Notes under the pieces: model-generated
Database searches by the model: none
What the model was told of the DNA's origin: nothing
The model's input: only the letters and a program-made list of their open reading frames with translations
Shown: piece by piece, positions 538 through 37,717 of the stretch
How positions within the stretch are numbered: the first letter of the stretch is position 1
How the letters are laid out: each line of letters starts with the position of its first letter
Translations under genes and position numbers: made by a program
IMG/VR virus record: IMGVR_UViG_3300034022_000315
Coordinates: 1-37,717 of that record
DNA length: 37,717 nt
Source of the DNA: a virus
Direction: 5' to 3' (one strand)

Positions 538-1044
538 AGTTTTTTCTCTTTTTGGTTGATGTTGGGTTAATCTTAATAGTTTAATTAGTAATTGTCAACA
601 TGTATATTCTGTATAACTTAAAAACAAGTTATACATATGATACATATGTATCATCTGTATAAAGTATGTATCATTGTTTTTGGGCGGTTTGATACATACA
701 CGAGCCTATAAATAGCGGGGCGTGTAGCTTATATGTATAATATGTATTAGTAGTTATTATATTAAAAAATTTTAAATATATATATATAGAATATTTGTAC
801 AGAATTTCAGCCAGAAAATGTTACCAGCTATCAACCTGAAACATATGCCCATTTGATACATAAACTCTACAGCCCCCGAATAATAAGGGAAGTGTATGTA
901 TCAAAGTTATACATGCCCAAAGCTAGTAAAAAAACTCCGCTTCCTTTATGTATCAAATGTATAGTTTAATTTTACTCTATACATGTATAAGTTGTACTAA
1001 ATGTATAACATGATAAAATTAAGCCTTTTATTAAGGCGGATAAA
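538..1044. other. Gene-free regulatory stretch, very AT-rich
   Basis: I see no gene here. The stretch holds the leftward promoter (570-598), seven copies of the octamer TGATACAT/ATGTATCA, many looser TATACAT/ATGTATA steps, and a long run of A and T at 755-790. A short GCCTT/AAGGC inverted repeat lies just before the gene at 1045. It could be a control region or a replication origin with iterons. Confidence 0.6.
570..598 (-). promoter_or_regulatory. Putative sigma70-type promoter of the leftward operon
   Basis: On the minus strand a perfect TTGACA (593-598) is followed, after 17 bases, by TAAGAT (570-575). Transcription would begin about 26 bases before the ATG at 537. The octamer palindrome at 638-653 lies about 40 bases upstream of the -35 box, so a bound protein could act as activator or repressor. 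Confidence 0.6.
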
Positions 1045-1307
1045 ATGATTAAATTAATAGATTTACGATATGCAAGTAAAGAACACCTGGTGAATGATTT
1101 ACAAGCGCTGCAGCTCAAGCCTAAACAATACACTTCAACAATGTTATGCTTACGCCAACATATAGGGTCAAGAATAATTATTAAGCGGCGTAAACAAGCG
1201 GGAACGCTTTACATTGATATTATTAATGATGGTTTAACTTTGCATACCCAAGTATCCGCCAATGGAGTGCAGATACCCATTCAATATGAATGATACATTT
1301 GATACAT
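638..1307. repeat. Array of nine octamers TGATACAT / ATGTATCA
   Basis: Exact copies start at 638, 646, 666, 690, 854, 896, 948, 1291 and 1300. The first two form a perfect 16-bp palindrome, TGATACATATGTATCA (638-653); the last two are direct repeats one base apart, the first of them overlapping the stop codon of the gene at 1045. An 8-bp word is not expected nine times in 670 bp by chance, so these look like operators of a phage regulator or origin iterons. Confidence 0.75.
1045..1293 (+). CDS. Small basic protein embedded in the octamer array, unknown function
   Basis: This is an 82-residue protein with ATG at 1045, preceded by AAGGCGG about 6 bases upstream. It is basic in the middle (RIIIKRRKQ, about residues 44-52), with a beta-rich C-terminal half (TLYIDIINDGLTLHTQ). 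I do not recognise the family. The gene is isolated between blocks of TGATACAT octamers, one of which covers its stop codon, and it is transcribed away from the leftward operon. By position it could be a regulator that controls its own expression and the divergent operon, but it shows no clear helix-turn-helix or ribbon-helix-helix pattern, so this is only a contextual guess. Confidence 0.55.
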   Translation: MIKLIDLRYASKEHLVNDLQALQLKPKQYTSTMLCLRQHIGSRIIIKRRKQAGTLYIDIINDGLTLHTQVSANGVQIPIQYE

Positions 1308-6937: not shown

Positions 6938-8191
6938 ATGGCTAATCAGCTGCTTACCATAAGCATGATTACAAACGAAGCATTGCGGGTCTTGACCAAC
7001 AGCTTAGTTTTTACTCGTGCAATCAGTCGTCAATATGATGACAAATTCGCTATTGAAGGCGCAAAAATCGGCACTACTATTAACTTGAGAAAACCTCCTC
7101 GTTATGTTGGTAGAACTGGCCCTGCACTTCAAATTGAATCATCTGTTGAAACTTACGTTCCATTGACTCTAAACACTCAGTTTGGTGTTGATATGGCGTT
7201 TACAACTCAAGATTTGAGCTTAAACATTTCTGACTTCTCAGACAGATTTATCAAACCAGCTATTGCGGCAATTGCTAACAAGATCGATTATGATGGTCTG
7301 CAACAATTCCTAAATGTATATAATATGGTTGGTACTCCTGGTCAATTGTCCGGTACTCCAACTCAAGCTCAGTCTTTAGCTACAATCTTAGCTGCTCGTG
7401 CTAGATTGAACCAAGAAGCTGCGCCTGTTGATGAACTCCGTCACATTGTTGTCGATCCTACTATTGATGTTGGTCTAGTTTCTGGTTTGACTAACTTGTT
7501 CAACCCACAAGGTGTTATTTCTGAAATTTTCAAGAAAGGCGCAATGGGCGACAGCACTTTAGGCTTCAACTTTGCAATGGATCAAAACGTAGGTAACTTT
7601 ACTTCAGGAACTTTCATCGTTGGTACTGATACAATCGCTGTAGCTGCACAAGCTGGCGGTGCTGTTCAAACTAACGCTGCAACGACTTTCGGTTTAACTG
7701 CTACTATTTCAAACGGTAAAACATTAACTCAAGGTACTGTTTTCACAATACCTGGCGTTTATGCTGTGAACCCACAAAACCGTCAATCAACTGGTACACT
7801 GCGTAATTTCGTAGTAACTGCGTTGACTACTGGTACTGGCTCTGCACAAACTGTTCAAGTATCACCAACACCTGTCTTTAGTGGTCAATTCCAAAACGTA
7901 ACTAGCACTGGCGGTACTATTGCTTCTGGCAATGCTACTGTAATTTCTGGTTCTGCTAGTGCAAGTTATGCTAACGCTATCGCTTTCCATCGCGATGCTT
8001 TTGCTCTTGGTACTGCTGATCTGTTATTGCCACAAGGTGTTGATATGGCTGGCCGTGCGTCTGCTGATGGTATGTCAATTCGTTTGGTTCGCCAATACGA
8101 TATTAACTCTGACCAATTGCCGACTCGTCTTGATGTACTTTATGGTTTCAGCACAGTTTATCCTGAGCTGGCTTGCCGTATCACAGGTTAA
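6938..8191 (+). CDS. Major capsid protein, P22 coat family
   Basis: This 417-residue protein (P22 coat is 430) begins MANQLLTISMITNEALRVLT, and then has GTTINLRKPPRY, FGVDMAFTTQDLSLNISDFS and the helix IKPAIAAIANKID, all typical of the P22 coat family with an HK97 core. The central part (about 225-330) is Ser/Thr/Gly-rich and probably forms the inserted I-domain. GGAG ribosome site; own promoter and leader upstream, following a terminator, which suits a product needed in several hundred copies. The codon pattern is regular, and the next gene starts 12 bases downstream with another GGAG. Confidence 0.92.
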   Translation: MANQLLTISMITNEALRVLTNSLVFTRAISRQYDDKFAIEGAKIGTTINLRKPPRYVGRTGPALQIESSVETYVPLTLNTQFGVDMAFTTQDLSLNISDFSDRFIKPAIAAIANKIDYDGLQQFLNVYNMVGTPGQLSGTPTQAQSLATILAARARLNQEAAPVDELRHIVVDPTIDVGLVSGLTNLFNPQGVISEIFKKGAMGDSTLGFNFAMDQNVGNFTSGTFIVGTDTIAVAAQAGGAVQTNAATTFGLTATISNGKTLTQGTVFTIPGVYAVNPQNRQSTGTLRNFVVTALTTGTGSAQTVQVSPTPVFSGQFQNVTSTGGTIASGNATVISGSASASYANAIAFHRDAFALGTADLLLPQGVDMAGRASADGMSIRLVRQYDINSDQLPTRLDVLYGFSTVYPELACRITG

Positions 8192-8203
8192 TAGGAGTTT
8201 AAA

Positions 8204-8578
8204 ATGAGTAATCCAGGCCCTAATGTAGTTGCAGTTACGTCAATACGTGCTACAGCTATTGTATCGTTAGCAGTAACTCCTGTTGCGGTTTTAACTATCA
8301 CAACCGCTGAACAAGATTTTACTCTTGCTGGCGTTGCGGTAGGTGATTTTGTATCGGTATCAACTACAGCGGCTCAAACTGCTGGCGTTGCTATAGCTGG
8401 TGCAAGAGTAAAATCTGCTAACACTATCAGTATCACTTATGTAAATCCAACTGCGGCATCTAAAACGCCTGCTGCGGATACATATTTAGTTCAAATTGTC
8501 CGTTCTTATCCTGTTGTTACTGACTTCATGTCAACATCACCAAGTAACTACGGCGCAATTCCAGCTAATAACCCATAG
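8204..8578 (+). CDS. Small head protein, possibly capsid decoration
   Basis: This is a 124-residue protein made almost entirely of Ala, Val, Thr and Ser beta-strands (AVTPVAVLTITTAEQDFTLA, then GDFVSVST). It directly follows the coat gene (12-base gap, GGAG ribosome site), as head decoration or stabilising proteins often do. No signal peptide or catalytic motif is seen. The phrase TTAEQDFTLAGVAVGDFVSV resembles small capsid-associated proteins in other phages, but I cannot name a family. A terminator-like hairpin follows at 8586-8618. Confidence 0.65.
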   Translation: MSNPGPNVVAVTSIRATAIVSLAVTPVAVLTITTAEQDFTLAGVAVGDFVSVSTTAAQTAGVAIAGARVKSANTISITYVNPTAASKTPAADTYLVQIVRSYPVVTDFMSTSPSNYGAIPANNP

Positions 8579-8585
8579 TAAGCTG

Positions 8586-8618
8586 AAGGTGGGGGGTAAA
8601 ATCCTCCACCTTTTCCTT
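8586..8618 (+). terminator. Terminator-like hairpin after the coat-proximal gene
   Basis: AAGGTGG (8586-8592) pairs with CCACCTT (8606-8612), with extra G-C pairing inside, followed by TTCCTTT. The T-tract is interrupted, so termination may be partial. Confidence 0.5.
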
Positions 8619-8629
8619 TAAGGTGAAAT

Positions 8630-8809: not shown

Positions 8810-10792
8810 ATGTCTAGCCTAGCGAATCAGCAACAAAATCTATCCTTTCCAGGCTTATTGCAGGTTCCTGGTGGCATTACTTCAGCACTTCAACAAGTTC
8901 AAGATGGAAATGGAAATGCTACAGGCTTAAGTTTAAGCTCTGCGGGCGCGTCTGTTACTACATCAAGCACTTTTCAGGCATCTAAAAACGGAATTACATT
9001 AGTTGGGGCTGTTGCTAGATTAATCAGCGATGGTTTTGGAGATTTGCCAACAGTTAAAGATTTTGGCGCAGTTGGCGATGGCGTTACGGATGACACAGCC
9101 GCTTTTACTGCGGCTATTGCTGCCAGCCCTGCTGGTGTAGCTGTTCCGGCTGGAAGTTATAAAATTATAGGTACAGTTACAGGCGCTTTTTATAGTTTTG
9201 GTACAGTTACTGTAATTACAGGAACTGTTACATCGATTCAAAATTTAACAAATTATCTTACTGCATCTAATGGGTCAACCTTAGTAGGAACTATTCAAAC
9301 TGGTACTGGCGCAACCGCCAGAACAGTAGCAGCTAAAGTAAACGATATTGTTTCTGTCAAAGATTTTGGTGCTGTTGGTAATGGTACTGCTGATGATACT
9401 ATAGCTATTCAAGCGGCTATGGATGCAATCCCTTCTACTGGGGGAAGTTTATATTTTCCTGCGGGAACATATATATTAACAGATGTTGTTACTATTACAG
9501 ACAAGCCCATTACATTACATGGCGATGGTATGAATATATCTGTCCTAAAATGGACAGGTGTAGGCATGACAGGGGTAAATGGTATTGAATATACTGCTAC
9601 ACAACAGCGCGTATTCACTATGTATGATCTAAGTTTAGAAGCCGTACCAAATTTATTGTCGGCAGCTACGTTAGCTGGATCAGCTATAAAACTAATTTAT
9701 CCTTCACAATTAAGTGTATTTGAAACCACTATTCAATTTCAACGCGTTTATTTTTCCCCTTTAAGAACTGGCAATACTTGGGCGCCTATTTTAACTGGTG
9801 GTTGGACTACTTGCGTTGAGTGTTTTGATTGCAACTATGCAAACTTTACAAATTGCACTTTTTTGAATACTGGTGTTGGGACTATTGGCGTAGACTTTAC
9901 TACGGCTTTAAACGCTAATTACACGGTTTTTGGAAAATGTAATTTTATTGGTTGTAATACCGCGCTTAAATTTAACGGTATTTCTGGCGGGTCTTGCGGC
10001 GGCATTGTTGTAGAGGGTTGCGATATTTTGTCTGTTGGTATTGGAATTGACATAACTGTTCCTACTGATTTGCTTCAAGTCTACGGAAGCTATTTCAAAT
10101 TTTCACAATTTGGCATTCGTAGTTTAGCTAGAAATACAACTGTTAGCGGAAGCCGATTTGATTCGGGCGATAGTTCAATTTACCCTGCGGCAGAAATTGA
10201 GGGCATACGAATTAGTTTAGGTGTTGGTGGCCCGTTTGATGGAAACATCATTAGCAATAATACATTTAATGACAACTCTATTTCTCCATACGATGGTATT
10301 GTTTTAGATAGCGCGTGTGTGTATTCATCTATTACTGGAAATACATTTGGCACTAATATTTCGTATGGCGGTGTTATGCGACGAGGCGCGTTTTTCAAAA
10401 CTGGCTCTAGTCAAAACAGATTTACTAATAATGTAGCTGTTGCTGTTACTTCTTTGTGCTACGACCTTGGGTCTAATAACATTGTTTATGACAACGCTGG
10501 CGGTAATTCAATAATGCCAATTAACGGTGCTACGCCTAATTTAGTTTCAGGGCAGTTCGATAAAGTGCTTGGAAATATGGTTACGATAGCTCAAACAGGC
10601 CCAACTAACGTAACAGACTTACTTAACGGCTTTGAGGGGCAAGAAATTACTATTGTTGCGGATGATTCAAACAGCACAATAATTGCAAATACACATTTTT
10701 TAATCGGTACCAATTTTGCTATGACGATAAATAGTTCGATTACTTTAAAATTTGACGGTTCTGCATGGCGGCTAGTTTCAAGATTTGCCTAA
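8810..10792 (+). CDS. Tailspike/fibre with pectate-lyase-like beta-helix
   Basis: This is a 660-residue protein. Two copies of the motif that opens pectate-lyase-type right-handed beta-helices are present: VKDFGAVGDGVTDDTAAFTA (about 82-101) and VKDFGAVGNGTADDTIAIQA (about 183-202), the second followed by PAGTYILTDVVTITDKPITL. The middle shows rung-like repeats with Asn/Gly turns, and the C-terminus (about 590-660) is a separate beta-rich cap. Such proteins trimerise and bind or cut capsule or O-polysaccharide. The first motif seems to belong to a short, truncated helix start. The gene lies between head and neck genes, unlike P22 where the tailspike is distal. Start ATG 8810 with GAGGAA. Confidence 0.85.
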   Translation: MSSLANQQQNLSFPGLLQVPGGITSALQQVQDGNGNATGLSLSSAGASVTTSSTFQASKNGITLVGAVARLISDGFGDLPTVKDFGAVGDGVTDDTAAFTAAIAASPAGVAVPAGSYKIIGTVTGAFYSFGTVTVITGTVTSIQNLTNYLTASNGSTLVGTIQTGTGATARTVAAKVNDIVSVKDFGAVGNGTADDTIAIQAAMDAIPSTGGSLYFPAGTYILTDVVTITDKPITLHGDGMNISVLKWTGVGMTGVNGIEYTATQQRVFTMYDLSLEAVPNLLSAATLAGSAIKLIYPSQLSVFETTIQFQRVYFSPLRTGNTWAPILTGGWTTCVECFDCNYANFTNCTFLNTGVGTIGVDFTTALNANYTVFGKCNFIGCNTALKFNGISGGSCGGIVVEGCDILSVGIGIDITVPTDLLQVYGSYFKFSQFGIRSLARNTTVSGSRFDSGDSSIYPAAEIEGIRISLGVGGPFDGNIISNNTFNDNSISPYDGIVLDSACVYSSITGNTFGTNISYGGVMRRGAFFKTGSSQNRFTNNVAVAVTSLCYDLGSNNIVYDNAGGNSIMPINGATPNLVSGQFDKVLGNMVTIAQTGPTNVTDLLNGFEGQEITIVADDSNSTIIANTHFLIGTNFAMTINSSITLKFDGSAWRLVSRFA

Positions 10793-17639: not shown

Positions 17640-18108
17640 TTTTATGGTTTTAGCACTTCCTAGATCGGGAACAGCTTGGGTTGCTAATCTTTTAACGACT
17701 GATACATCACTTTGTATCCATGAAGCATTTATGGATCACTCCATTGATGATCTGGATACTCGATCTTACGATGGACTGTTAGGAATTGCTGAAACCAGTG
17801 CATTTACCAAAGTGGACGAGATTAATCAGCACTCTGCTAAAAAGCTCGTTATAGAGCGACCATTGAACGAAGTGAATGAATCAATAGCAAAGCTAGGCTT
17901 TAAAGCGATGCCAACGAATTCAGATGATTTGATGATTCAACTTAAAGGGTATAGAATAGCTTTTAAGGACTTGTTTAATTACGATATTATGGCTGAAGCG
18001 TATTATTATTTACTGCGTAAAGAGCTTAACCAAGAACGGCATCGGATGTTATGCCAAATGAATATTGAAAACACCGTAGCTATTGAACGTGTCAGAGGGT
18101 TAGTATGA
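17632..18108 (+). CDS. Sulfotransferase-like protein (PAPS-dependent), short form
   Basis: This is a 158-residue protein. It opens MIDFMVLALPRSGTAWVANL: PRSGTAW (10-16) is the 5'-phosphosulfate-binding loop of sulfotransferases. ERPLNEVNES gives R76 and S84, the same 8-residue spacing as the pair that holds the 3'-phosphate of PAPS in eukaryotic cytosolic enzymes. The family usually has 250-300 residues, so the protein is short, though both cofactor motifs are present. It overlaps the fibre gene by 8 bases and the hydroxylase gene by 4 bases (ATGA). It might sulfate a sugar, lipid or virion protein; the substrate is unknown. Fold call is good, activity uncertain. Confidence 0.72.
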   Translation: MIDFMVLALPRSGTAWVANLLTTDTSLCIHEAFMDHSIDDLDTRSYDGLLGIAETSAFTKVDEINQHSAKKLVIERPLNEVNESIAKLGFKAMPTNSDDLMIQLKGYRIAFKDLFNYDIMAEAYYYLLRKELNQERHRMLCQMNIENTVAIERVRGLV

Positions 18109-27163: not shown

Positions 27164-27344
27164 GCGCGTTGCGCCAGTCTATAAATAAGGTACATTCAAG
27201 TTCTTTTATTTCTTTCTTTGCGTCCATGCGCCACATAAAGTCCTTAGTATCTATCTCGATAGTTAGATAACGAGCGCAGTCTTGTTTTTTTTCGCAGTTA
27301 CTTCCAAGACAACGGGCGTTTTCATTTGGTAATGGATATTTCAT
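27147..27344 (-). CDS. Small cysteine-rich protein (paralogue of 28558-28761)
   Basis: This 65-residue protein has RCLGSNCEKKQDCARYLTIE (Cys12-x4-Cys17-x5-Cys23) followed by DTKDFMWRMDAKKEIKELEC (fourth Cys). Four cysteines suggest a small metal site, perhaps a zinc ribbon. The protein at 28558-28761 shares the pattern CLGSNC-x-KK-x2-C-x-RYL-x-IE-x-DTKDF, so the two come from a duplication within this operon. Start ATG 27344 has GGAG 8 bases upstream, inside the codons of the preceding gene; the overlap is 23 bases. Function unknown. Confidence 0.65.
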   Translation of the reverse strand: MKYPLPNENARCLGSNCEKKQDCARYLTIEIDTKDFMWRMDAKKEIKELECTLFIDWRNAHEYEH

Positions 27345-27501
27345 TATTTACTCCGTGCATCTTTTCTGCAAACTTAACCCCAGCCCAGAAGCTTTCAGCG
27401 TTAATTGCATCTTCATTATCTCTAAAGCCTTGAGAGATTTCTTCACGAGTTAAACCTTCTCGTAATTCTTCTCGTAAATCTTCTCGTAAATCTTTACTCA
27501 T
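27322..27501 (-). CDS. Small charged protein with LREE repeats, cassette family
   Basis: This 59-residue protein is read from ATG 27501, which overlaps the previous stop (ATGA) with GGAGG in the previous gene's last codons. It starts MSKDLREDLREELREGL, encoded by a 12-base direct repeat near GATTTACGAGAA. It ends in FWAGVKFAEKMHGVNNE, the same (W/F)AEK-x-HG element as the neighbouring genes 27498-27878 and 27871-28239. The 19-residue frame at 28761-28820 is a shortened version of this gene. Function unknown; it appears to be a product of repeat-driven shuffling. Confidence 0.6.
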   Translation of the reverse strand: MSKDLREDLREELREGLTREEISQGFRDNEDAINAESFWAGVKFAEKMHGVNNEISITK

Positions 27502-27878
27502 TCCCCACCTCCAATACCGTGTTCTTTTTCTGCCCACTTAACCCCATCTTTAAACGCTTCTCTTGTGACATTTAGCATTGATTGATTGCCAACACTTATT
27601 TGTTGCGGTGTTAAAGGCTCACGTTTTGGCGGTGCTGCGTAAAGTGGTGAGGTGTATATCTTAGTGCCAACTGGTAGTGCTTCTAATTTTTTTGCGTCCT
27701 CAAAAGATACTCTGAATGATTGAAATTGTGGTGTTTCTAACTTTGTTGCCACGGGTTGGTCTTGTTCAGGTTGGGCGAGGAGTTCTTGGATTTCTTTGTA
27801 CAGTGTATGACCAATAAACCAATCCCCGTCATCATCTTCAACCATAGCTCTTTTCAGTAACTCCCTTTCTTTACTCAT
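27498..27878 (-). CDS. Cassette-family small protein (RELL...PEQ...LYAAP...AEKxHG)
   Basis: This 126-residue protein is read from ATG 27878 (AAGGAG 8 bases upstream) rather than the ATG two codons before. Order of elements: MSKERELLKR (1-10), ELLAQPEQDQPVA (about 34-46), SPLYAAPPKREPLTPQQI (about 79-96), NQSMLNVTREAFKDGVKWAE (about 100-119), then KEHGIGGGE. The last codons contain GGAGGTG, the ribosome site of the next gene. It is clearly paralogous to 27871-28239. Proteins with an LYAAPP segment are common uncharacterised phage products; I cannot assign a role. Confidence 0.65.
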   Translation of the reverse strand: MSKERELLKRAMVEDDDGDWFIGHTLYKEIQELLAQPEQDQPVATKLETPQFQSFRVSFEDAKKLEALPVGTKIYTSPLYAAPPKREPLTPQQISVGNQSMLNVTREAFKDGVKWAEKEHGIGGGE

Positions 27879-28239
27879 TATCAAAGCTCCTTATACCGTG
27901 TGCTTTTTCTGCAAACTTAACGCCTTTCCTAAACGCCAATCTAGTCACCTCTAATAATGATTGATTAGCCAGACATATAAAATACTCACTCAAAGGCTTA
28001 CGTTTTTGTGGTGCGGCGTATAAAGGTCTTAAGTTAAATGGTTGCGTTGACTCGCCTTTAAATGGTTTTTCACTCCCACAATATGCTTGTGTTGACTCAA
28101 GGTCATTCTCGTACCACTCATACATCCAAGCCACAGGCTCTTGCTCAGGTTGGTCGAGGAGTTCTTTGATTTCATCAGCAAGCTCTCCTTCCCACATATA
28201 ATCTAGTATTCTCTGCAACAACTCTCTTTCTTTACTCAT
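27871..28239 (-). CDS. Cassette-family small protein, paralogue of its downstream neighbour
   Basis: This 122-residue protein is read from ATG 28239, coupled by ATGA to the previous gene with GGAGGTG upstream. It has MSKERELLQR (1-10), ELLDQPEQEPVAWMYEWYEN (about 27-46), RPLYAAPQKRKPL (about 81-93), NQSLLEVTRLAFRKGVKFAE (about 102-121 region), then KAHGIRSFDNE. It is similar to the 27498-27878 product at both ends, with a different middle (AYCGSEKPFKGESTQPFNL). The C-terminus lacks the GGGE ending but the next gene has its own AAGGAG. Function unknown. Confidence 0.65.
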   Translation of the reverse strand: MSKERELLQRILDYMWEGELADEIKELLDQPEQEPVAWMYEWYENDLESTQAYCGSEKPFKGESTQPFNLRPLYAAPQKRKPLSEYFICLANQSLLEVTRLAFRKGVKFAEKAHGIRSFDNE

Positions 28240-28568
28240 TCCCCACCTCCAATGCCGTGTGCTTTTTCTACGCTTCTTATCCATCTAATGACGTATCTGA
28301 CTTGATGATCGTCCATATTTTCAACAATCCCTTCTTTATCAAGAGCATATATAACATCTTCTGTTAATGGTTTGGGTGGTGCAAACTCATTGACCCCTTG
28401 TCTAAACCCTTTCCCATACCATTCAATCTTTGTTTCTGCTAAAAGAGGCTCTTGATCTTGCTCAGGTTCGGCAAGACACTCTTTTATATCATTGAACAAA
28501 CTGACCACATCTTCTTCTGTTTTCAGTTCAGTCATAAACCTTTTAAGCAACTCTCTTTCAATAGTCAT
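28236..28568 (-). CDS. Cassette-family small protein with divergent centre
   Basis: This 110-residue protein is read from ATG 28568 with AGGGATG about 10 bases upstream. It begins MTIERELLKRFM, has ECLAEPEQDQEPLL (about 30-43), APPKPLTEDV, and ends VEKAHGIGGGE, but its centre (EDVIYALDKEGIVENMDDHQ, then VRYVIRWIRS) is not shared with the other family members. The final codons hold the GGAGGTG ribosome site of the following gene. It overlaps the previous gene by 11 bases. Function unknown; mosaic make-up suggests recombination between cassettes. Confidence 0.62.
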   Translation of the reverse strand: MTIERELLKRFMTELKTEEDVVSLFNDIKECLAEPEQDQEPLLAETKIEWYGKGFRQGVNEFAPPKPLTEDVIYALDKEGIVENMDDHQVRYVIRWIRSVEKAHGIGGGE

Positions 28569-28761
28569 AAAAATTAACATCCCTAAAATCTATAAAAAAA
28601 CTACAATCCATTTCTTTTAATTCTTTCATTGCATCCATGTGAAAAAAGAAATCTTTTGTATCTACCTCAATGCTTAAGTATCTGGAGCAGTTTTCTTTTT
28701 TGTCGCAGTTGCTACCTAAGCAACGTGCTGTGTCGTCAGACAGTGGGCGTGTCATTTTCAT
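28558..28761 (-). CDS. Small cysteine-rich protein (paralogue of 27147-27344)
   Basis: This 67-residue protein starts at ATG 28761 with GGAGG 6 bases upstream, in the end of the 19-residue frame. It has RCLGSNCDKKENCSRYLSIE and DTKDFFFHMDAMKELKEMDC, the same four Cys as the paralogue. The pair (short LRED protein, then Cys protein) occurs twice in this operon, here and at 27501-27147, so a two-gene unit was copied. Function unknown; a small zinc-binding fold is plausible. Confidence 0.65.
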   Translation of the reverse strand: MKMTRPLSDDTARCLGSNCDKKENCSRYLSIEVDTKDFFFHMDAMKELKEMDCSFFIDFRDVNFYDY

Positions 28762-28820
28762 TATTTACCTCCAATGCCGTGCATATCTTCTCGTAAATCT
28801 TCTCGTAAATCTTTACTCAT
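28761..28820 (-). CDS. 19-residue remnant or micro-gene, shortened form of 27322-27501
   Basis: ATG 28820 (ATGA overlap with the HTH gene, GGAGG upstream) to TAA 28761-28763. The product MSKDLREDLREDMHGIGGK joins the first 11 residues of the 27322-27501 protein to its MHG ending, as if the middle were deleted. It keeps both ribosome sites, its own and that of the next gene, so the frame may serve mainly to pass ribosomes along. Confidence 0.45.
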   Translation of the reverse strand: MSKDLREDLREDMHGIGGK

Positions 28821-29059
28821 TTCCTACCTCCAATAGTAATATGATCGCCTACTCTTGGAGGCGTTTCACCTGTCATTTTCAGCCAGTAATCCAATAAGTT
28901 AATGGCTTCCTGCCATCCTGCTGGTGGTCTTTTGGTTTCCTGTTTGACGCATGACAGGGTGCTTACTGCGGTATCGGTCTTTCTAGCTAGTTCTGCCAGG
29001 CTAACCCCTTTTCCATATAGCACCTGAATCATCAAGGCAAAGTCTATATCTCTAGCCAT
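28817..29059 (-). CDS. Small helix-turn-helix DNA-binding protein
   Basis: This 80-residue protein has GVSLAELARKTDTAVSTLSC (about 18-37), a good helix-turn-helix of the Cro/XRE kind: a helix with ELA, a turn, then a recognition helix after TAVSTLS. The remainder (WQEAINLLDYWLKMTGETPP) gives one more helix. ATG 29059 has GGGAGGT 6 bases upstream, and it overlaps the previous gene by 8 bases. The final codons (IGGRK) contain the ribosome site of the next frame. It may regulate this operon or act in replication; no operator is identified. Confidence 0.7.
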   Translation of the reverse strand: MARDIDFALMIQVLYGKGVSLAELARKTDTAVSTLSCVKQETKRPPAGWQEAINLLDYWLKMTGETPPRVGDHITIGGRK

Positions 29060-31623: not shown

Positions 31624-32256
31624 ATGTCAAATTTAGTTGCGTTCTCTGGTTCTAACCTTCCTTCTGTCACTTCACTTTCTTCTGCGCTTCGTTCTTTGGA
31701 AACAGAAGTTGGTGGCTCTGCTGGCTCTGCAATCCTTAAAATGGATCGTACTGGTCATTGGGTGTTTGGTGCAGGCGAATCTGAAGTGGAATCAGACTCT
31801 ACATGGGCGGTTAATCCGTTCTCTTTCGTACACGGTTTTATTTGCTGGGGTGAAGGTGAAGTGTTAGGTGAAAAGATGGTCGGTATTACTCAACCATTGC
31901 CTGAACTTGATGCTGCACCTGCTGGCGGTAAGCGTGGATGGGAAACCCAAGTCGGCATGAGCTTAAAATGCTTGTCCGGTGAGGACAAAGGTTTGGAAGT
32001 TCGTTACTCAACTACTTCGGTAGGTGGTAAGCGTTCCGTACAAACTCTTGCAGTTGCAATTGCTACGCAAGTTGATGAAGATCAAGGTAAGCCAGTTCCA
32101 GTCATCAATCTCAAGAAAGAATTTTACCAGCACAAAGCGTACGGTAAGATTTACACTCCTGTGTTTGATGTAGTTGAATGGGTTGGCTTAGATGGTGAAG
32201 CTAAGGATGAAGATGGTGTACCAGCCGAGACTGGTAGACGTAGGCGCTCAGTCTAG
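31624..32256 (+). CDS. Probable single-stranded DNA-binding protein (by context)
   Basis: This 210-residue protein lies between nuclease and polymerase. It is beta-rich with conserved-looking aromatic positions (KMDRTGHWVFGAGESEVESD, then WAVNPFSFVHGFICWGEGEV, KRGWETQVGMSLKCLSG). Acidic stretches and a final basic RRRR are present. In phages with DUF2800-type nucleases an ssDNA-binding or annealing protein commonly follows; composition (Gly, Val, Trp, Tyr) agrees. I see no single proven motif, so the role is contextual. A terminator hairpin follows 9 bases after the stop. Confidence 0.6.
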   Translation: MSNLVAFSGSNLPSVTSLSSALRSLETEVGGSAGSAILKMDRTGHWVFGAGESEVESDSTWAVNPFSFVHGFICWGEGEVLGEKMVGITQPLPELDAAPAGGKRGWETQVGMSLKCLSGEDKGLEVRYSTTSVGGKRSVQTLAVAIATQVDEDQGKPVPVINLKKEFYQHKAYGKIYTPVFDVVEWVGLDGEAKDEDGVPAETGRRRRSV

Positions 32257-32264
32257 TTAAGGAG

Positions 32265-32286
32265 AAGGCCCGAAAGGGCCTTTTTT
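32265..32286 (+). terminator. Terminator hairpin immediately before the polymerase start
   Basis: AAGGCCC (32265-32271), GAAA loop, GGGCCTT (32276-32282), and six T (32281-32286). It is a near-ideal intrinsic terminator with a stable GNRA-type loop. The polymerase ATG is at 32291, only 5 bases after the T-run, and the only Shine-Dalgarno-like AGGAGAAGG abuts and enters the 5' arm. Confidence 0.88.
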
Positions 32287-32290
32287 AGCC

Positions 32291-34162
32291 ATGCTATTTA
32301 TCGATTTTGAAACAAAGAGCGCCTGTGACTTGAAGAAGCATGGGGTTTACAATTACGCGCAAGACAGAAGCACTGAGGTGCTGTGCATGTCTTATGCTTT
32401 TGATGACGATGTCCAGACTTGGACACCGGATCAACCATTTCCCGAACGTGTCAGAAATTACAAAGGTGAGATAAGGGCGCATAACGCTACCTTTGAGCGC
32501 CTAATTTTTTGGTATGTGTTAGGCATTAACTTCAAGCTGGAACAATTCTACTGCACGGCTACCCAAGCTAGGGCTAATTGTCTGCCTGGTAGTCTTGAAG
32601 ATATTGGCCGTGCTATGTCTGCTAAGATGAAGAAAGATCATCGTGGTAAGCAGCTTATCCGTCAGTGTTGTGTGCCTCCTTATAATATAGCCCTACTTCC
32701 AGAGCTGATTCATTATTGTGAACAAGATGTTCGGGCTATGCGTGAAATTAGCCTGGCGCTACGTCAGTTAGATGCTGATGAACTGCTTGACTATCATATT
32801 AATGAGCGCATCAACGATAGAGGTTTGCTGATTGACGTACCGTTATGTCATGCCGCTATTGGTTACGCTACGGCTGAACTGGAGGACATCCAGACGTTAG
32901 TGAAAGATATAACAGGTATTGCCTCGGCTAGATCGCCAAAGCTTAAACAGTGGGTTGCTGACCGGATTGATCCTGAACTGATGATGGTTGAGGATAAGTT
33001 GTCGCTTAACAAAGCTACGCGTACTGCGTTACTGCAAATGGATTTACCCAACGAAGTGTTGGACGTTGTTCAATGTATTGATGACATTAGCGCTTCCTCG
33101 GTAGCTAAGTTCAAGCGTATGGGTGAGCTGGCGGATGTTGAAGATCACCGCGTTCGTGGTGCGTTTGTCTTTAACGGTGGCTCTGCTACAGGCCGTAGTT
33201 CCTCATACGGAGTCCAATTACAGAACATGGCTCGTGTGTGTGCTAAAGACCCTGTTGCGGTGCGTAAAGCTATGATAGCTGGTGATTCCTTAAGCGCGTT
33301 CGGTAATCGTGTGACAGACGTGCTGAAGGGCATGATACGTCCTGCTATCATTCCTGCACCCGGCAATGTTTTAATTGTAGCTGACTGGGCGGGTATTGAA
33401 GCACGTTGTAATCCGTGGTTAGCTAAACAACCTTCATCGGAGGCCAAGCTGGACATCTTCCGGTCTGGTGGCGATGTGTATGTTGAGAACGCCAAGTCTA
33501 CATTCAATACAAAAGAAGTCACCAAAGAGCAACGTTTCGTGGGCAAAGTTCAAGAACTCGCTTTAGGCTATTCCGGGGGAGCTGGCGCGTTTGCGTCAAT
33601 GGCGCGTATCTATGGCCTTAACATGCCCGAACACCAAATCAAGCGCATGATTAACGGGTGGCGTGTGGCTAATCCGTGGTGTATCCCGTATGGCCAAGAG
33701 TTGGAACGCGCTTACATGAGCGCAATGCGTCACAAAGGACATGAGTTCTCTGCTGGACGGGTAACGTACTTGTTTGACGGAAATCATCTTTGGTATATTT
33801 TACCGTCAGGGCGTATACTCAACTACCCATTTGCTCGGATTGAAGATGGCGCTGTCACTTACCTTAAGGCTGCGTTCAAGCCTGCTTCTGACGCTGTTGA
33901 ATGGCCTCGCGCTAGATTGTGGCAAGGCATTGCACAAGAAAACTGCGCACAAGCTACTGCAAATGATTTACTAAGATACTCACTCCGGCAACTGGATGGC
34001 GTTATAGCGCACATCCATGATGAAATCGTTGTCGAGTGTAGAGAAGATGAAGCTGAAAGCATAACAAAAAGAATGACATCCAGCATGTGTAGTGCGCCAG
34101 TTTGGGCTGACGGGCTACCACTGGATGTCGAAATAGCAACAATGTATCGATATGGAAAATAA
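32291..34162 (+). CDS. DNA polymerase, family A, with 3'-5' exonuclease
   Basis: This is a 623-residue protein. The exonuclease domain opens MLFIDFETKS (D5, E7) and includes RAHNATFERLIF and HYCEQDVRAM. In the polymerase part motif A is LIVADWAGIEAR (D365), motif B RFVGKVQELALGY (R415, K419, Y427) and motif C AHIHDEIVVE (H576, D577). All catalytic residues are present; the 5'-3' nuclease of E. coli Pol I is absent, as usual in phages. It replicates the phage genome, probably with the primase-helicase next to it (11-base overlap). The start lies just after a terminator hairpin and lacks a free ribosome site. Confidence 0.93.
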   Translation: MLFIDFETKSACDLKKHGVYNYAQDRSTEVLCMSYAFDDDVQTWTPDQPFPERVRNYKGEIRAHNATFERLIFWYVLGINFKLEQFYCTATQARANCLPGSLEDIGRAMSAKMKKDHRGKQLIRQCCVPPYNIALLPELIHYCEQDVRAMREISLALRQLDADELLDYHINERINDRGLLIDVPLCHAAIGYATAELEDIQTLVKDITGIASARSPKLKQWVADRIDPELMMVEDKLSLNKATRTALLQMDLPNEVLDVVQCIDDISASSVAKFKRMGELADVEDHRVRGAFVFNGGSATGRSSSYGVQLQNMARVCAKDPVAVRKAMIAGDSLSAFGNRVTDVLKGMIRPAIIPAPGNVLIVADWAGIEARCNPWLAKQPSSEAKLDIFRSGGDVYVENAKSTFNTKEVTKEQRFVGKVQELALGYSGGAGAFASMARIYGLNMPEHQIKRMINGWRVANPWCIPYGQELERAYMSAMRHKGHEFSAGRVTYLFDGNHLWYILPSGRILNYPFARIEDGAVTYLKAAFKPASDAVEWPRARLWQGIAQENCAQATANDLLRYSLRQLDGVIAHIHDEIVVECREDEAESITKRMTSSMCSAPVWADGLPLDVEIATMYRYGK

Positions 34163-36461
34163 GATGAACTTTATTGACTACCTAATTAGTATAGCTCCTT
34201 CTGAAGAAACAGTATTATTTGTAAAACAAATTCCTAAACCTGACCTTTTTCACAAAGATGGCGCTCAACAATGCGCTTGGCCAGCCTATCTTCCTTCTAA
34301 GTATGACGGTAAAGGTGCTTGGTATTGTAACACTGCCAGTTTCATTATTAACCGTTTCAAAGATGGTAAACCGAGTGCTTCTGCAACTAATTGTGAGTTG
34401 GTAGCGTTCTTGGTGCTGGATGATGTTGGTACGAAATCAAAAACACCTGATCTAGCACCGACTTGGATCATGGAAACATCGCCAGGCAACTTTCAGTACG
34501 GCTATACCTTTAGCCTTGAAGATCAACCGACAAAAGGAAATTTCAGTGCAGCTATTAAATCTATTGCTAGTGCGGGCTATACAGACGGTGGGGCTATTAA
34601 TGCTGTGCGTAATTTTCGGCTTCCAAACAGTGTTAATTATAAGCCTGATCGTGGCGGCTTTCTTTCTCGGTTAGTGTCGTTCAATCCTGAAAGAGAGTTC
34701 ACCCTTCCGCAAATCTGCGACGCCTTAGGCGTTACTCCTGCGGAAGCAGACACCGCCAGCGTGAAGCGTATCGATTTGCTGGACGATGGTACTGATGATG
34801 TCTTAACGTGGCTTGTTGGGCGTGGCGACGTGATCGAAGGTGCTAATGGTGAAGGCTGGGTTGGTGTGACGTGCATCAACGCTGGCGCTCATTCGGACGG
34901 TAATCCTATGGCGCGTTATCATCCGGTTAATCGCTCTTACATGTGCTTTCACGAGTCTTGTCAGCACTTAGACAGTAAGACCTACCTTGAGTGGGTACAG
35001 GCTGAAGGTGGGCCTAAGCATTCTCATGGTTTGCGTGAAGAATTGTTAGCGTCCGTCATGAATGACACCTTAGCCAAACTCGAACCATCGGACATGTTTA
35101 CTAATGACGCGATTACTGCCATCGCTGAAGTAGATCGTAAGGAGCTAGGCAGACTGGAAAAAAAAGACTGGTTTAGCAGGTTTGCTTACATTCAGGTAGA
35201 CGAGTCCTATTTTGACTTGCAAGCTAGACGTGAAGTCAGCCGTGCTACTTTCAACGCCTTGTTTCGACATGTCGAGTGCAAGTCCATACACTCAGGTCGT
35301 AAGATAGAAGCTTCTATTTGCTATGATGAGAACAGACAGGCGATGGGCGCTCATGCTTTAGTTGGCATCACCTATGCGGCAGGTGATACGATGCTGACCG
35401 CGCTTGATGGTGACATGTACGGCAATCGCTGGCGTGACGCTCGCCCGGATGTGTCGGGTAAAGCGGGCAATGTCACCCGTTGGCTTGACCACTGCAAGAC
35501 CTTAGTACCTAATGAAGCTGAATTGGCGCATATCTTCAACGTCATGGCGTACAAAGTTCAACACCCCAATGTTAAGATCAACCACGCCATTCTGCACGGT
35601 GGCGATCAAGGAGCTGGTAAGGATACCATGTACGCGCCGTTCATTTGGGCGGTGTGTGGCCCTCACCTTAAGAACCGAGGCTTGGTTGATAACGATGGTA
35701 TTGCTTCACAGTTTGGCTACGCCCTTGAGTCGGAAATCCTTATCATTAACGAACTGAAAGAACCGGACGCTAAAGAAAGACGTTCGTTAGCCAACAAACT
35801 CAAGCCTGTCATTGCAGCGCCACCAGAAACCTTAACGATCAACAGGAAGGGCTTGCACCCTTATGATATGGTCAATCGTATCTTCGTGCTAGCGTTCTCT
35901 AATGATCCCGTCCCTATTCAGTTGGAGTCACAAGACAGACGATGGTTCTGCGTTTGGTCACACGCCCCTCGCATGTGTCCGGAGGAAGCACGGTCTATGT
36001 GGGATTGGTTCAAAACCGGAGGGGGTTACGAAGCTATAGCATCTTGGTTGCTGGTGCGTGACGTTAGCGCGTTCAACCCTGGTGCTACACCCATGATGAC
36101 GGAGTTCAAACTGAACCTAGTTGAGCAGGGCATGTCAACTGCCGAGTCGTACCTTGTAGACTTGATGCGCTTGCGTGTCGGTGAGTTTGCATCGGGAGTG
36201 ATAGCGTCCCCCTTCCATGCGCTTTGTGATCGTTTAGCTAATAGCGCACCAGGTAATGTTAAAGTTCCTCAAGCTGCATTACTTCACGCCCTTAAAGAAG
36301 CTGGCTGGAATGATAATGGACGGTTAAAGTCTACGGATTTTCCTAGCCAAAAACATATTTACAGCGCCCCTAATGACGAAGCAATTAACGCGCTGAGTAA
36401 GTCAGACCTTAGAAGAATGGTTGAGCCAGACAGAAACAGAAAACTGACACTTGTGAATTAG
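34152..36461 (+). CDS. Primase-helicase, D5/DUF5906 type
   Basis: This 769-residue protein has three parts. About 60-200 resembles an archaeo-eukaryotic-type primase (CELVAFLVLDDVGTKSKTPD, then GAINAVRNFRLPNSVNYKPD). About 241-272 holds a Cys/His set (C241, H247, C265, H267, C270, H272), likely zinc-binding. About 480-620 is a superfamily 3-like ATPase: Walker A GGDQGAGKDT (K490), Walker B ILIINEL (about 529-535), then NRIFVLAFSNDPVPIQLESQ and DRRWFCVW. The protein would unwind the replication fork and make primers for the polymerase. It overlaps the polymerase gene by 11 bases and is the last gene of the operon. Confidence 0.88.
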   Translation: MENKMNFIDYLISIAPSEETVLFVKQIPKPDLFHKDGAQQCAWPAYLPSKYDGKGAWYCNTASFIINRFKDGKPSASATNCELVAFLVLDDVGTKSKTPDLAPTWIMETSPGNFQYGYTFSLEDQPTKGNFSAAIKSIASAGYTDGGAINAVRNFRLPNSVNYKPDRGGFLSRLVSFNPEREFTLPQICDALGVTPAEADTASVKRIDLLDDGTDDVLTWLVGRGDVIEGANGEGWVGVTCINAGAHSDGNPMARYHPVNRSYMCFHESCQHLDSKTYLEWVQAEGGPKHSHGLREELLASVMNDTLAKLEPSDMFTNDAITAIAEVDRKELGRLEKKDWFSRFAYIQVDESYFDLQARREVSRATFNALFRHVECKSIHSGRKIEASICYDENRQAMGAHALVGITYAAGDTMLTALDGDMYGNRWRDARPDVSGKAGNVTRWLDHCKTLVPNEAELAHIFNVMAYKVQHPNVKINHAILHGGDQGAGKDTMYAPFIWAVCGPHLKNRGLVDNDGIASQFGYALESEILIINELKEPDAKERRSLANKLKPVIAAPPETLTINRKGLHPYDMVNRIFVLAFSNDPVPIQLESQDRRWFCVWSHAPRMCPEEARSMWDWFKTGGGYEAIASWLLVRDVSAFNPGATPMMTEFKLNLVEQGMSTAESYLVDLMRLRVGEFASGVIASPFHALCDRLANSAPGNVKVPQAALLHALKEAGWNDNGRLKSTDFPSQKHIYSAPNDEAINALSKSDLRRMVEPDRNRKLTLVN

Positions 36462-37181: not shown

Positions 37182-37717
37182 TTAGCACCTACAAGGCATA
37201 ATGACATATATAACCTCATCACTAGGCATCATATAGCCAGCCAACTCACAACTATATAAACGTTTAGGCGTGGTATTACCAAAATACTTACAAAGTGCAT
37301 CATTGGCAAGGGCAACATATGACCAGTTAAATTGATGCTGTATAGCGTTTAAATTTTTATCATGGTCATTTAACTTTATCGGATCAATTATCTTATTAAA
37401 GCTTGGATACTTATGGTCAATAGGTGTGAACACTTCTAGTTCAGTATCAGAAATAGCTATCTCGTAACGGCCATTAATTAAAAATATACCTACGTCAATA
37501 AGGTCATGTTTTGTCCCAACTTTTTTTAATAGCGCTTTTATTGTTTCGATTGGAACGATAATATTATCTTCTGGAATATCATTATTATAAATATTGATAT
37601 GGCATAACACATGACCATTTGAACCACTAACGTGAGTTTTGGTGATGTTAAGGCCATTAAGATAATATCGTATATCAGGTTTTTTAGGTGCTGCGCTTAG
37701 TGCTAGTCTTAAGTCTT
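37182..37717 (-). CDS. DnaN-like sliding clamp fragment protein, main part (5' end truncated by the contig end)
   Basis: This is the continuation of the gene starting at 167; here the frame is open to the contig end, ten bases short of the ATG. Across the whole 181 residues: DIRYYLNG (18-25), SNGHV (36-40), IIVP then IKALLKKV (56-70), IDHKYPSF (103-110), FNWSYV (133-138) and the terminal YVIMPCRC (174-181). E. coli DnaN has, in the same order, DVRYYLNG, TDGHR, VIVP, VDGRFPDY, FNVSYV and the final YVVMPMRL. So it keeps domain II and the last half of domain III; domain I and the first half of III are missing (DnaN is 366 residues). YVVMPMRL lines the pocket that binds polymerases. Ring formation with so few domains is unproven. 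Confidence 0.85.
   Translation of the reverse strand, partial: DLRLALSAAPKKPDIRYYLNGLNITKTHVSGSNGHVLCHINIYNNDIPEDNIIVPIETIKALLKKVGTKHDLIDVGIFLINGRYEIAISDTELEVFTPIDHKYPSFNKIIDPIKLNDHDKNLNAIQHQFNWSYVALANDALCKYFGNTTPKRLYSCELAGYMMPSDEVIYVIMPCRC
37561..37717. repeat. Right copy of the terminal overlap
   Basis: It matches 1-157 except A at 37591 (G at 31). The difference changes codon 46 of the clamp-like gene (Ile here, Thr on the left), indicating two variants in the source population or a base error. Confidence 0.9.

Follow-up and report, generated by a model that had tools for sequence, protein, structure and literature searches.

An octamer array in a P22-like podovirus is a probable replication origin whose repeats change with the predicted wing of the phage primase-helicase

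An iteron origin with a cognate initiator is a known kind of replication module. In P4, the large primase-helicase alpha (777 aa) has the C-terminal domain 1KA8, and the repeats annotated as ori type 1 are octamers (TGTTCACC) that lie on both strands, with a 9-bp pitch in crr, directly downstream of the alpha gene. The C-terminal domains of SaPI Rep and SCCmec Cch2 read iterons downstream of the gene (PMC7581432). The initiators of PLE satellites have a RepA_N domain that covaries with the ori iterons, modules are swapped repeatedly, and the ICP1 nuclease Odn copies the RepA specificity and cuts the PLE origin (PMC8263062). What is new in the locus described here is a code between the wing of the initiator and the octamer of the array. 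No paper describing such a covariation was found in literature searches, and the paper on a named relative, DSL-LC05, makes no mention of a replication origin or repeats.

The window, which is the whole stretch of DNA analysed (37,717 nucleotides), belongs to a P22-like podovirus with a P22-type portal. Its ends (1–157 and 37561–37717) overlap by 157 bp with one mismatch, and the genome is therefore a circle of 37,560 bp; a leftward gene (37185–179) crosses the seam, and 37182–37610 gives a weak RusA-like match in PHROGs. An array of the octamer TGATACAT is found with leftward small genes on one side and rightward terminase genes on the other, downstream of the primase-helicase gene. Nine exact copies had been claimed by the sequence-only reading, and all are present (638+, 646−, 666−, 690+, 854+, 896−, 948−, 1291+, and 1300+). 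A genome-wide count gave 10 copies against 1.44 expected, a number reached in 0 of 100 shuffles, and the single copy outside the array is a stray at 17700. When 590–1320 alone was subjected to 2,000 dinucleotide shuffles, TGATACAT occurred in 0.07 copies on average (maximum, 2) and the best of any octamer in at most 4, compared with the 9 observed. The set is larger than nine, because 14 octamers of the form T[GT]ATACAT, TTATACAT copies included, can be found at 629–1307, and same-strand neighbours are often exactly 9 bp apart in direct pitch.

The left iteron cluster (600–753) contains the exact copies at 638+, 646−, 666−, and 690+, TTATACAT-type copies at 629+ and 733−, and degenerate copies at 600 and 742, and the same positions carry another octamer in relatives with another wing. 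Two abutting octamers within it form TGATACATATGTATCA (638–653), confirming the perfect 16-bp palindrome reported earlier. A GC-rich block between iterons (697–732; ..GCC..TATAAATAGCGGGGC..) is conserved in the alignment while the octamers change, and a candidate unwinding element is seen at 721–810, where 60-bp windows from 721 and 751 are 85–88% A+T. Array copies flank this stretch, with the right cluster at 854–1008 made up of the exact copies at 854+, 896−, and 948− and TTATACAT-type copies at 907+, 983−, and 1001−. The tandem pair TGATACATTTGATACAT on the plus strand (1291–1307; 9-bp pitch) also exists as first described, the TGA of its first copy being the stop codon of an 82-aa ORF. The locus has what is expected of an iteron origin, namely short repeats clustered far above chance beside an A+T-rich stretch. 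The array is at least 1.7 kb from the initiator gene, with small genes in between, which counts against the origin reading. GC skew in the window follows gene direction and is uninformative; it does not single out the array as an origin. The iteron pair ATGTATAATATGTATTA at 734–750 encloses a TATAAT box, and a promoter might therefore be shut off as well when the initiator binds.

To compare the array across phages, scans were carried out with the terminase, the initiator, and the 82-aa protein, which returned several hundred loci. Relatives contained a clustered octamer array in the same interval, often of a different octamer. Arrays of TGATACAT were found in the window, L009, and L013 (ten copies in the last), and arrays of TGTACACA in L014 and L018, whereas L010 carries a TGCATACA/GCTTACAT array although its terminase large subunit is 100% identical to that of the window. 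More distant relatives have TATTGCCA, TGACTACA, TGCCTACA, TGACCCAA, or other octamers. When aligned, the relatives keep the same frame and the GC-rich block, with one octamer replaced by another where the iterons sit. Octamers were counted from seeds, because EM motif finding settled on low-complexity sequence. Picking the top octamer automatically also went wrong, in L131 and L140 because of tandem repeats and in L114/L115 because of other repeats. Tandem repeats lie directly beside the arrays of L131 ((GCCCTT)n, 10468–10530) and L140 ((CAGT/CAGC)n, 10575–10700). In L080-clade loci (e.g. L282, L302, and L309), a second octamer, TCACTAAC, recurs; in several phages whose wings differ it ranks first among the clustered repeats, and it may be another control element.

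The array was at first read as either an operator system or origin iterons, with three small proteins offered as binders; origin iterons are the better supported part, and none of the three proteins fits. Apart from the window, the 82-aa ORF inside the array (1045–1293, plus strand) is found in L009 alone; L013, which has ten TGATACAT copies, lacks it. The RHH protein has an identical β-strand (ILATFSL) in phages with TGATACAT arrays and phages with TGCATACA arrays. In the HTH protein, L013/G002 (TGATACAT) and L014/G003 (TGTACACA) share 87% identity. As a separate observation, this HTH-like protein (28817–29059) is only 60% identical to the L010/G001 version, where most neighbours are at least 91% identical.

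A protein that reads the array should change with the array and not with the general kinship of the phage. All proteins of the window were therefore compared gene by gene with those of five relatives (G001–G005). In this set, almost every protein, the terminase, portal, RHH, and HTH proteins among them, groups by kinship. In the 769-aa primase-helicase (34152–36461, plus strand), residues 722, 728, and 729 agree only between the window and G002, both of which have TGATACAT; over the last 500 residues of this protein, the window and G001 are nearly identical outside the wing patch. Other positions shared only by the window and G002 are one RHH residue outside the β-strand, one polymerase residue, and residues scattered in three ORFs of a fast-shuffling block (about 27.5–28.8 kb), whose gene families are exchanged between phages, and in its neighbour. 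Judged from the sequences, array type is tracked by a single protein, the 769-aa primase-helicase, and within it by a predicted C-terminal β-wing at residues 720–733 (hypervariable segment NDNGRLKSTDFPSQ; 36309–36350, plus strand).

This protein, the proposed initiator, contains Pfam DUF5906 at residues 481–597, and its helicase core has the fold of D5-like/SF3 primase-helicases (P4 alpha, SaPI PriRep, and D5). Foldseek matched the core to the NrS-1 C-terminal region (E 1e-15), MPXV E5 (1e-8), and SaPI5 PriRep1 (4e-7; 7pds/7ola), and hmmsearch matched it to 6k9c (7e-11). The C-terminal helicase of the phage NrS-1 primase-polymerase is the best match by both sequence and fold, but stops short of the wing domain; the SaPI5 PriRep1 match covers the helicase core. 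AlphaFold2, run with alignments of relatives, predicted a winged helix at residues 663–756 (36138–36419, plus strand), with a pLDDT of about 91 at the variable patch, which in the model lies beyond the putative recognition helix and comprises the strand and loop of the wing and the first part of the strand that follows. The winged helix alone gave only generic winged-helix matches in Foldseek and VIA-align, and 1KA8 was not among the matches listed. No sequence homology to P4 alpha was detected by profile comparison (hhalign probability, 0.2%), so the protein may be said to work like P4 but not to be P4 alpha. A scan of bacterial genomes found no relative of the initiator.

Patch classes were fixed on six genomes and then applied to newly fetched phages. 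As expected from its class A patch, L113 contained 12 copies of TGATACAT, and L116, L117, and L124 (class B) contained TGCATACA. In L114 and L115, where a class C patch sits on a window-like backbone, TGTACACA was found, though in just three exact copies. The patch of L136 is A-like (KSADYPSQ) and its backbone distant, and this phage has 10 copies of TGATACAT. For L129, L131, L133, L135, and L140, the class D patch predicted GCTAACAT, which was found in 5–8 copies, these arrays having been sought from the wing after the automatic call took another sequence. Overall, the wing class gave the right array for 30 of 31 relatives on different backbones, and the backbone tree of these relatives needs 8 wing and 9 array changes. 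The exception is L143, in which a hybrid array (8004–8620) has C-type octamers in its left half and B-type octamers in its right half, with other sequence between; the left half is of the type matching its own patch. This hybrid may be a stage on the way from one origin type to another, or a chimera of the assembly.

A larger set of 113 loci with arrays of at least 6 copies was compared over ten wing residues; the pairs are non-independent, and the following figures are descriptive. Where backbones are at least 90% alike, the array is common to 294 of 306 pairs with identical wings (96%) and to 2 of 15 pairs with no more than 5 of 10 wing residues matching (13%). Where backbones are 75–90% alike, the same array is found in 26 of 26 and 44 of 305 pairs, respectively. 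Each single contrast amounts to 2–4 independent pairs, all in the expected direction. The wing KSR[ED][FY]D.K goes with TGTCCACA and KSR[ED][FY]D.R with TGCCCACA in all 30 scorable loci (L290 had neither octamer, and L144 was mixed, 5 to 4), and two independent switches are required by the tree, both of which fit. Array calls were unclear or mixed in some clades whose wings are of the ASREF/ASREH or GMC.SRS type. A rule by which an Arg in the wing would mean a site beginning with TG seemed attractive at first but did not hold cleanly. The repeats can be matched, by covariation only, to the DNA-binding domain of an initiator encoded on the same replicon. The octamer is literally not conserved where the region is otherwise conserved, a pattern that the sequence-only reading had named as evidence against its proposal; since the octamer switches along with the initiator wing, its lack of conservation instead becomes evidence for function.

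The array is very probably the replication origin of the phage, with TGATACAT as an iteron that its own primase-helicase recognizes through the wing of the C-terminal winged helix. The array, its position, the wing–octamer covariation, and the fold predictions form the observed base, from which we infer binding, unwinding, origin activity, and a reason for the diversification, with the mechanism taken from P4 and SaPI. Several copies of the winged helix would bind octamers through the wing, cooperatively at the 9-bp pitch. Hexameric, self-loading helicase rings would then load and open the A+T-rich stretch, and the A-family DNA polymerase encoded in the same operon (32291–34162, plus strand) would begin synthesis after helicase loading. 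Each domain would prefer its own site, the window type a TGATACATTTGATACAT duplex and the L010 type a GCTTACATTGCATACAT duplex. Because wing and octamer change together between phages, each type would have a private origin.

The same array could be a multi-site operator by which a small repressor (the 82-aa, RHH, or HTH protein) controls divergent transcription. Tandem boxes are a possible target of RHH proteins, the gene blocks on either side of the array are divergent, and a TATAAT box sits within an iteron pair, but none of the three proteins covaries with the octamer, as the repressor of an operator array should and as the initiator wing does, which makes this explanation highly unlikely. 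That the repeats are functionless, fast-mutating simple repeats whose covariation reflects shared ancestry is scarcely credible: tandem repeats do lie beside the array in relatives such as L131, but near-identical backbones differ in array when the wing differs, different backbones have the same array when the wing matches, and the copies occupy both strands at a 9-bp pitch with their positions kept.

It is also conceivable, if unlikely, that the initiator binds the array mainly for transcription regulation, segregation, or packaging, and not to start replication. Identifying a binder does not in itself prove origin function, and the array is immediately next to the terminase operon, where promoters may overlap it. 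Against this, the fold class of this helicase-primase is one whose members load at iteron origins (PMC7581432), and the layout of array and A+T-rich stretch matches the P4 ori/crr. P4 is also similar in the size of the protein (777 aa in P4 and 769 aa here), and its octamer resembles TGTCCACA/TGTACACA of some relatives. Unlike here, where there is one array downstream of the gene, the P4 sites are split between ori and crr, and here the octamer differs between near-identical phages. SaPI Rep/PriRep share the D5-like SF3 helicase, but the SaPI and SCCmec systems belong to Staphylococcus elements and not to P22-like podoviruses.

A more specific proposal, to which we give equal credence and doubt, is that the wing, not the recognition helix, reads the octamer, and that steps of a few residues shift it by a readable code (D.K, TGTCCACA; D.R, TGCCCACA; PSV, TGTACACA; KSTDFPSQ, TGATACAT), giving at least 12 mutually private origin–initiator pairs within a single group of phages; satellites, co-infecting relatives, or origin-directed nucleases may be the driving force. 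By analogy with PLE, Odn-like targeting or competition among co-infecting relatives could drive the diversification. Among the loci searched, no Odn-like nuclease or decoy with the wing domain was found, only initiators or their fragments. PLE RepA_N belongs to an unrelated initiator family and involves whole-domain exchange among five PLEs, whereas here a wing of approximately 11 residues changes across dozens of phage types.

These phages bear on the question of how the specificities of an initiator and its origin can change jointly without a lethal intermediate. In this natural series of some hundred phages, the switch comprises roughly eleven residues plus the octamer, phages on its two sides have near-identical backbones, and a single hybrid origin appears to be caught between two types. 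The series allows direct and cheap tests of a protein–DNA code and provides a set of candidate orthogonal origins. If the origin reading is true, it places the replication origin for a large group of uncultivated freshwater podoviruses.

Two further features of the window were noted. A 210-aa protein adjoins the A-family polymerase and the helicase (31624–34162), a set that resembles the polymerase–SSB primase pairs of mobile elements (PMC10061031). Tandem small ORFs with a common module (LLxQPEQEPVA..., PPKREPLSD..., and KAHGIGGGE) occupy 27322–28580 and are strongly shuffled between phages that are otherwise at least 95% alike.
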